From an uncultured Ectothiorhodospiraceae bacterium (GTDB lineage: Bacteria > Pseudomonadota > Gammaproteobacteria > Nitrococcales > Nitrococcaceae), in assembly GCA_913055565.1 (NCBI GenBank), contig CAJXKP010000001.1, positions 1-64,000 on the forward strand: 64,000 nt of DNA, read 5' to 3'. Of the stretch, positions 43,504 to 46,163 are shown one piece after another. The translations under genes and the position numbers were made by a program. Positions within the stretch are counted from its first letter, which is position 1; every line of letters begins with the position of its first letter. The notes under the pieces are model-generated. The model was not told the DNA's origin. It ran no database searches and worked only from the letters and a program-made list of their open reading frames with translations.

Positions 43504-43623
43504 ACGCTTCCCCCTTGGATGATCGAACCATCCCGGCGGTCACTGATTACCAGCGCCAGCCGGGCGAGCGGGCGCGAGTATGCCACGCCTGTTGCCGCAG
43601 GCGATGCCGGCTCAGGGATGGCC

Positions 43624-43788
43624 TAGCAATTCTCATTTTGGCCTTCGAGGTGCTCGCGTTAGCCCCTGCCGAGGGCGTCTGCGGCCACGCAAGGCCGCCG
43701 TCGAGCCTCCAGGGAAGGTTTATGGCGTCCCTCGGCAGGGGTGACGCGAGCACGCGCCCTCCTGCGGATTACATCATTGGAATTGCTG
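43624..43788 (-). mobile_element. Family A MITE-like element, copy 5, inserted into a gene end
   Basis: A 165-bp copy in the orientation of copies 3 and 4. The 9-bp duplication gggatggcc is perfect (43615-43623 and 43789-43797). The insertion point lies between the last sense codon and the stop codon of the minus-strand phosphoesterase-like gene. Read across, the element now supplies CAG CAA TTC CAA TGA. The original stop (tca at 43612-43614) is still next to the outer duplication. Confidence 0.95.
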
Positions 43789-44772
43789 GGGATGGCCCAG
43801 CCAACATGCGCTGCCGCGGACGGCCTGCTCCGGGCGATAGGCGACGTCGCCGGCGAGCCGTTGGGCGTAGGATTGATAGGCCGCCGAACCCGGTGGCCAC
43901 CAGTCACGAAAGCGTTGCCACCAGGCATCGGTATCGACGCACAGCGGCATGAGCTCGAGATAGAGGTCGCCGACGCTAAGGCGGGCGACGGCGCTGCTGT
44001 GGGGCGTCGTCGCGATGCGCGAGGCCAATCCATACGCCGTACCGCAGAAATTCGGCATCCCCGCGGAGCCATTATTGATCACCGCCCGGCGCGCGCCGCC
44101 CAAGGCGTAATCGGTCAGCACGGGCAGGCAGGTGTGGCTGGAGGCAAAGATCGACACCTCGGCCTCACGGAACCAGTCCGATAGCGTCTCGCGCGCCGTC
44201 AGGGCGCCATCACCGCAGCCCAGGGCGCGGTGGAGCTCGCCATCGGCGGGCGGTAGGGCTTCCGCGGCCAGGCCCCAGCCGGCAAGGGCGCTGGGATCGC
44301 CGTGCACGACGCCAACCCGCTGGTCACCAACGGCCACGGTCAGCGTGCGATCAAGACCTTCAAGCTCGCGGGCGCGCGACCACGGGCAGGCCGCCTTGAG
44401 GGCGGCCATGATGGCGTTGGAGCGAGCCACCGCCGCATCCGAGACGTAATCGGGGTAGGCACAGCCGCAGCCGGCGTCGCTAGGCTCTGCCAGCTCGGCC
44501 TCGACGTTGCCGGCTGTGAGCCGATGCGCCAGGACCCGATCCTGGATCGCCCCAAAGCTCGCCACCTCATGATCGAAGAAATGGCAATCGCCGTTGACCA
44601 CGACGCGCGCCTCGGGCTCACGGGCCGTTATGGCCTCGAGCGCATCCAGCGCCTCGGGATTGCCGTAGAGCCCACCCACCACGTAGAGACTCGAGGTCTC
44701 GAGGGCCGGGGCCGCCGCCATTGTTCGCGGTGAGTAGCGGTAATGCAGCGGACACACACGCCCGGCGGTCAT
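43774..44772 (-). CDS. Degenerate metallophosphoesterase-like protein with MITE-derived C-terminus
   Basis: About 332 residues resembling calcineurin-like phosphoesterases (diadenosine tetraphosphatase or YfcE style), but with changed metal motifs. SDxHGN is replaced by GGLYGNPEALDAL, GNHE by AGNVEAEL, and the GD motif reads VVNGDCHFFD. The HGDP and SSHTCLP histidines remain. It is probably a pseudo-phosphatase or has altered metal use. The ATG at 44772 overlaps the symporter stop as ATGA, so the two genes are coupled. The final residues QQFQ and the stop come from the family A repeat; before insertion the protein would have ended LGHP. Confidence 0.75.
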   Translation of the reverse strand: MTAGRVCPLHYRYSPRTMAAAPALETSSLYVVGGLYGNPEALDALEAITAREPEARVVVNGDCHFFDHEVASFGAIQDRVLAHRLTAGNVEAELAEPSDAGCGCAYPDYVSDAAVARSNAIMAALKAACPWSRARELEGLDRTLTVAVGDQRVGVVHGDPSALAGWGLAAEALPPADGELHRALGCGDGALTARETLSDWFREAEVSIFASSHTCLPVLTDYALGGARRAVINNGSAGMPNFCGTAYGLASRIATTPHSSAVARLSVGDLYLELMPLCVDTDAWWQRFRDWWPPGSAAYQSYAQRLAGDVAYRPEQAVRGSACWLGHPQQFQ

Positions 44773-46163
44773 GGCCACACCCGATGAACCAGCAGGGGAA
44801 GGAGGTAGAGCAGCGAGCACAACACCAGGCCCCAGGCATTGGCACCCAGGAGATGGGCATAGCCGCCAGCGCCGATGGCGAGGGCGTCGGGCCACCAGCC
44901 GAGGGTATGGACAACACCCAGGGCCAAGCCAGTCCAGAAGCTTAAATGGAAGCTTACCGGGGCATAGCCGCTCCAGGGATAGAGCAGGAAGGCTGGGGCT
45001 AGCCCCATCACCATGGTACCGCTGAGCGTAGTGGCCTTGAGGATGTCGGTGCCCAGCAGCATCGGGAGGTTCCCCAACAGCGCGAAGGCGATCATAACGC
45101 CGATACCACTACGCCGACTGGCGCTCGATGACGCGCCGCCCCATAGGCGCGGCAGATCCCAGGCGAGTCCCTTGGACAGCGAGCTAAGAGTCGAGTCGAG
45201 TGTCGAGCCGGCCGAGCTCATCATGACCACGCTCAGGAAGAACAGCGTTGCCACACCCATGGAGCGCCCCACCGCCGCCGGCACGTTACCACCGCCATCG
45301 AGGCCTGCCAGCTGGGCATGGACGCCGACGAGGCCGAACAGGGCAATAGCCACAAAGCCCAGGACGCCGGCGACTATAAACGCGGTCAACATCGATCGCT
45401 CGCGATTGATGAACGCCCGATCGGTGAGCACCGGATCGTGGAAGGGATAGCTCACGAGTTGCAGGCCAGCGACCAACAATAGGTCAACGCCGCCGTTGAG
45501 CTGCCACACCCCCGTTGTCGCCAGGCGGCTGACGCCGTAGTCCGGCAGCACCAGGAACAGCGCGAGAACCAAGAAGAACACGAACAGCACGGCCTGGACG
45601 GCGTCGGTCATCAACGAGCTGCGCAAGCCGCCCTTGGCGCTGTAGGCGAGCGTAATCCCAGTGAACACCAGGGCGGCCGTGATGTAGCCCCTGCTACCGG
45701 GATCGCCGAAATAGCCGCCCACGACGGCCGTATTCGACCAGATCTCGTTGTACAGACGTATCAGGATGGCGAGCGTAAACGCCCCGCCGGCGGCATGCCC
45801 ATAGCGCTGGATGAGGAACCCGACCATGCTCGTGGCCTGCAAGCGCCGGCGGATACTGAAGATCACCAGCCCAGCAACGGGGATGCCCAACCAGTACGTG
45901 GCGTACGCCAGCGCACCGACCACGCCATGCTCGGCGCCCAGATTGGCCGCGTTGGTGACCGATTTGGCGAAGATCCAGCTAATAAACACGGACAGGGTCA
46001 ACGGCACGGTGGCCACCGGACGCCCAGCAGCGTCGACCCCTTGGAAGAAGCTGCGCAGCGTAACCGCGCGTGGCGAGACGGCGTACAGGACCACGCCGTA
46101 GACCAGTAGGAAGCCCCAGAACGCCGTGGGTAGGCCCCAGGCCGGCGTCCACCACTCCGGCAT
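44769..46163 (-). CDS. Sodium:solute symporter (SSS family)
   Basis: A 464-residue inner-membrane transporter with about 13 helices, of the SSS family. It starts with a hydrophobic helix (TAFWGFLLVYGVVLYAVSPR) and shows the family features SWIFAKSVTNAANLGAEHG in an early helix and SSAGSTLDSTLSSLSKGLAWD in the sodium-site region. The closest style is the proline/pantothenate-like transporters, but the solute is unknown. CAGGAGAC precedes the ATG. A family A copy is inserted only 22 bp upstream of its start codon, which probably displaced its original promoter. Confidence 0.85.
   Translation of the reverse strand: MPEWWTPAWGLPTAFWGFLLVYGVVLYAVSPRAVTLRSFFQGVDAAGRPVATVPLTLSVFISWIFAKSVTNAANLGAEHGVVGALAYATYWLGIPVAGLVIFSIRRRLQATSMVGFLIQRYGHAAGGAFTLAILIRLYNEIWSNTAVVGGYFGDPGSRGYITAALVFTGITLAYSAKGGLRSSLMTDAVQAVLFVFFLVLALFLVLPDYGVSRLATTGVWQLNGGVDLLLVAGLQLVSYPFHDPVLTDRAFINRERSMLTAFIVAGVLGFVAIALFGLVGVHAQLAGLDGGGNVPAAVGRSMGVATLFFLSVVMMSSAGSTLDSTLSSLSKGLAWDLPRLWGGASSSASRRSGIGVMIAFALLGNLPMLLGTDILKATTLSGTMVMGLAPAFLLYPWSGYAPVSFHLSFWTGLALGVVHTLGWWPDALAIGAGGYAHLLGANAWGLVLCSLLYLLPLLVHRVWP

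Follow-up and report, generated by a model that had tools for sequence, protein, structure and literature searches.

The 3' end of a metallophosphoesterase-like gene lies inside a mobile repeat in the 64-kb stretch of DNA analysed here (the window). Judging from the sequence, we consider it very likely that a MITE inserted into a gene that formerly ended ...ACWLGHP-TGA, and that the element now extends the protein tail to QQFQ-stop. The features concerned are the following.

43774 to 44772, minus strand: metallophosphoesterase-like gene, 332 aa in its present frame, with the last 4 codons and TGA inside the MITE.
43624 to 43788, minus strand: MITE copy of 165 bp, with ends CAGCAATTC.../...GAATTGCTA and 93% identity to the family consensus.
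43668 to 43736, minus strand: three-way-junction apex of the MITE, covarying and also present in unrelated hairpins of other genera.
43615 to 43623, no strand assigned: outer (distal) 9-bp copy of the target-site duplication GGGATGGCC.
43789 to 43797: inner (gene-proximal) 9-bp copy of GGGATGGCC, encoding GHP on the minus strand.
43774 to 43788, minus strand: MITE-supplied CAG CAA TTC CAA TGA (4 residues and stop).
43612 to 43614, minus strand: putative pre-insertion stop TGA, as read from the joined flanks.

The 9-mer GGGATGGCC occurred exactly twice in the window, and the two occurrences, identical at 9/9 positions, stood on either side of the 165-bp element. On the minus strand, the gene-proximal duplicate read GGC CAT CCC and continued into the element as CAG CAA TTC CAA TGA, giving the protein end GHPQQFQ-stop with its last base at 43774. 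The distal duplicate read GGC CAT CCC and then TGA (43614-43612). As insert plus duplication amounted to 174 nt, or 58 codons, the old TGA stands in the same frame as the present gene, and in-frame stops within the MITE intervene before it. When the flanks were joined by script at one duplicate, the rebuilt empty site read ...RPEQAVRGSACWLGHP followed by the stop, i.e. ...RGSACWLGHP-stop. The original prediction had described a 9-bp duplication around a MITE, a GHP-QQFQ-stop ending with the last four codons and stop inside the element, an old stop (tca, TGA on the minus strand) still in frame past the outer duplicate, and an empty site that could be rebuilt exactly as ...GGC CAT CCC TGA. Its coordinates and codons were all correct, direct reading confirmed the old stop, and the flank join reproduced the empty site.

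At element position 10 the family consensus carries T (CAG CAA TTC TAA), so the focal copy owes its fourth added residue (Q) and its TGA to its own departure from the consensus. A consensus copy at the same site would have added only QQF, three residues.

In the history that we propose, a staggered 9-bp cut would have been made across the last three codons of the gene, GGC CAT CCC; the MITE, a non-autonomous DNA transposon, would have inserted at the cut, and repair would have duplicated the 9-mer. Ribosomes would now read the four terminal-repeat codons CAG CAA TTC CAA and stop at the TGA inside the MITE, leaving the old TGA unused 174 nt downstream. A strong hairpin would also have been left in the 3' untranslated region, between the metallophosphoesterase-like gene and its downstream neighbour, a zapE-like gene. 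On the evidence of the flanks, the TGA beside the outer duplicate is probably the ancestral stop.

The identity of the element as a MITE was borne out by its family. A sequence search of the window's own genome (2.7 Mb) returned about 50 dispersed copies, 48 of them scorable and most 164–168 bp long once oriented and trimmed. Nearly all shared the ends CAGCAATTC.../...GAATTGCTG, which form a terminal inverted repeat, and the arms pair along much of the element length. The element is well within the short range (below about 500 bp) and too short for a transposase gene. Duplications were scored on flanking 9-mers, allowing ≤2 mismatches and a boundary tolerance of 1 base, with control flank pairs for comparison. 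They were found in 44/48 copies versus 2% of control 9-mer pairs, so that chance is no reasonable explanation, and their length was constant at 9 bp. Identity to the consensus was 86–98% among the 39 copies of standard arrangement, with the focal copy at 93%. In the nine other copies listed here, the core was inverted relative to both ends, as would be expected if two inverted arms recombine.

Inverted-core copies: L110:2155, L112:3046, L113:2652, L117:811, L118:1053, L119:978, L125:948, L126:834 and L127:1590.

A search of the same assembly for an autonomous partner, using paired end sequences, found no transposase bearing the MITE ends. Solitary ends on four contigs (C13, C37, C28 and C63) were rejected as such a partner, being remnants, a chance match or a contig end. 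DDE_Tnp_1 matches were present in this genome, and no link between them and the MITE ends was made. Presumably, a transposase supplied in trans moved the MITE. Rfam gave no credible match for the MITE, and a literature search found no paper on the family or on the core sequence; the family tentatively looks new.

Elements with the same ends were also present in other, related genomes. Exact matches to the end CAGCAATTCNNATNNTG numbered 15 in G029, 14 in G013, 3 in G002, 2 in G003 and 1 in G007, with zero control matches in these five genomes. The same-ended elements were 381 and 409 bp in G029, 300 bp in G003 and 164 bp in G007, and the 9-bp duplications around them were perfect or near-perfect. 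In G013, a same-ended repetitive element breaks contigs: most of the 14 end matches lay at contig edges (L267–L280), and three contig-split insertions had matching 9-mers. The body of the G013 element is missing from the assembly; the element is probably a transposon that was active recently and is possibly autonomous. The core of the window MITE was absent from all six same-ended elements examined in other genomes.

Conversely, the three-way-junction core was found without the ends. It showed compensatory changes at 12/22 pairs across 11 sequences and was present in 28/58 genomes searched, the window's own and 27 related ones, with up to 87 scored copies per genome. At loci in other genomes (L183–L222), the stems differed between genomes and often between copies, and MITE ends surrounded the core in 0/40 fetched loci of six other genomes. 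With ends elsewhere lacking the core and the core elsewhere lacking the ends, the MITE looks like a chimera, in which the ends of one mobile family would enclose an independently existing, conserved and covarying three-way-junction hairpin; we hold this reading only tentatively, as a possibility somewhat short of even.

The core also resembles REP elements associated with RAYT (Y1_Tnp) proteins in having a tetranucleotide of the GTAG/GGAG/GGGG type 5' of its hairpin. Y1_Tnp proteins were commoner in genomes with the core (21/28 versus 10/29; Fisher p = 0.003, uncorrected for phylogeny). However, a search for Y1_Tnp (PF01797) gave no match in the window's genome, which has about 50 cores, and movement of the focal unit involves inverted ends and target-site duplications. 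REPs are not known to have either. The occurrence of the core as hairpins without MITE ends might suggest that the repeat is a fixed structured, REP-like element flanked by coincidental 9-mers. The chance of this is practically nil, as the genome-wide duplication statistics refute it, and same-ended elements with another interior show 9-bp duplications in other genomes as well.

The long ORF of the host gene begins at 44895, and ATG 44772 is the preferred start. It is the likelier of the two because the orthologues share a GRxCPL motif near the N-terminus; it also shares an ATGA overlap with the stop codon of the symporter ORF upstream. Pfam and NCBIfam sequence models gave no match for the protein. 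Its AlphaFold2 model had a pLDDT of 94, and confidence dropped nowhere but at the very end of the C-terminus, where the final residues scored ~49. Foldseek matched this model to metallophosphoesterases, the best being 3qfm, an asymmetric Ap4A hydrolase/phosphodiesterase (E 1.1e-11, prob 1.00). The predicted structure thus supports a calcineurin-like metallophosphoesterase fold for the gene product, in keeping with the earlier label "phosphoesterase-like". The family conserves the motifs GD, GN-V-E, HGD and SHT and an invariant CGC motif, and has GGLYGN in place of the usual DxH.

We compared the C-terminal tail with those of orthologues. No congeneric genome with the empty site was found among those searched, and the best orthologues were ~50% identical to the host protein (about 40–51% across the set), and the homologues found by a contig scan of genomes were just 38–45% identical. 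In 30 orthologues, the tail after the last invariant Arg was 15–43 residues long, with a median of 23; the focal tail has 23 residues to the rebuilt LGHP and 27 with QQFQ. A QQFQ ending in orthologues would have spoken against the original prediction, and none of the 30 ended in this way. Because the orthologue tails vary in length and sequence and do not align with one another, their lengths agree with LGHP as the old end without proving it. Given these tail lengths before and after insertion, the four-residue change was probably neutral, and we infer that the extra residues have no functional effect. To speak of a rewritten protein end is fair, if modest: the change concerns four residues of a variable, non-conserved tail.

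The gene may formerly have been longer and truncated by the insertion, with the TGA beside the outer duplicate a later mutation in unselected sequence. Some orthologue tails do reach 43 residues, and the flank past the MITE has been free of coding selection since insertion. Nevertheless, we regard this history as very unlikely: the duplication is perfect, so little mutation has accumulated, the TGA comes immediately after the duplicate and in frame, the rebuilt tail equals the orthologue median, and the long orthologue tails cannot be aligned with each other.

Another reading is that QQFQ was selected as a functional C-terminal extension, or that the MITE was kept because it stabilises the 3' end of the mRNA or serves there as a processing site. 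The minus-strand RNA of the element is predicted to form one long hairpin of great stability (−81.6 kcal/mol, z = −5.3), and in other bacteria RNase III is known to act on MITE hairpins within transcripts (PMC2229807). However, the tail varies both in length and in sequence and falls at the low-confidence end of the AlphaFold2 model, and the same hairpin stands at about 48 other sites without a common gene context, which makes selection or retention highly improbable.

A scan of all MITE copies for genes ending within them gave 35 candidate frames. Of these, just two, the focal gene and one other, were accepted as real genes on coding score and homology; the rest were taken for antisense or shadow frames, in most cases without testing for homology. 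The second gene, on contig C18 of the same genome (L111:3255-3400), is haloalkane dehalogenase-like: phmmer matched it to an ancestral haloalkane dehalogenase at E 1e-92. It ends ...TDGRD-QGS-stop inside a MITE copy. The duplication there, GGCCGGGAC/GGCGGCGAC, has two mismatches, and the joined flanks gave an empty site of ...TDGGD-ALD-stop. By a rough estimate, two gene ends in ~50 insertions would be unsurprising if the insertions that survive are mostly those outside coding sequence.

A MITE supplying the last residues and stop of a gene is a kind of event already documented (PMC5896051, PMC2229807). In Coxiella burnetii, QMITE1 and QMITE2 lie across gene 3' ends and supply the last residues and the stop, conferring 0–16 residues on eleven genes, including ubiB, mutT, recN and ruvB, and a 33-residue extension of EnhC also comes from a QMITE (Table 2 for the eleven genes; PMC5896051). 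The likeness to the focal MITE is one of outcome at the gene end; no QMITE-listed gene matches the focal or the C18 gene, and the focal site differs in that its perfect 9-bp duplication gives the empty site directly. Delihas (2007) reviewed Rickettsia palindromic elements, Yersinia ERIC/YPAL and Neisseria Correia elements, which like the focal MITE are small, non-autonomous and palindromic and can be fused in frame to protein genes (PMC2229807). The typical elements in that review are A+T-rich with TA ends, whereas the focal MITE is rich in G+C and combines CAGCAATTC ends with a 9-bp duplication.

The focal site provides a base-exact record of a mobile repeat changing the end of a protein. Since the duplication has preserved the former codons along with the former stop, no relative is needed to read the ancestral C-terminus. 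The focal site, the C18 gene and the Coxiella cases together support the view that MITE insertions are tolerated in variable C-terminal tails. If the MITE is indeed a chimera, it would bring in a structured 3'-UTR ready-made, together with a stop codon, whenever it inserts behind a gene.
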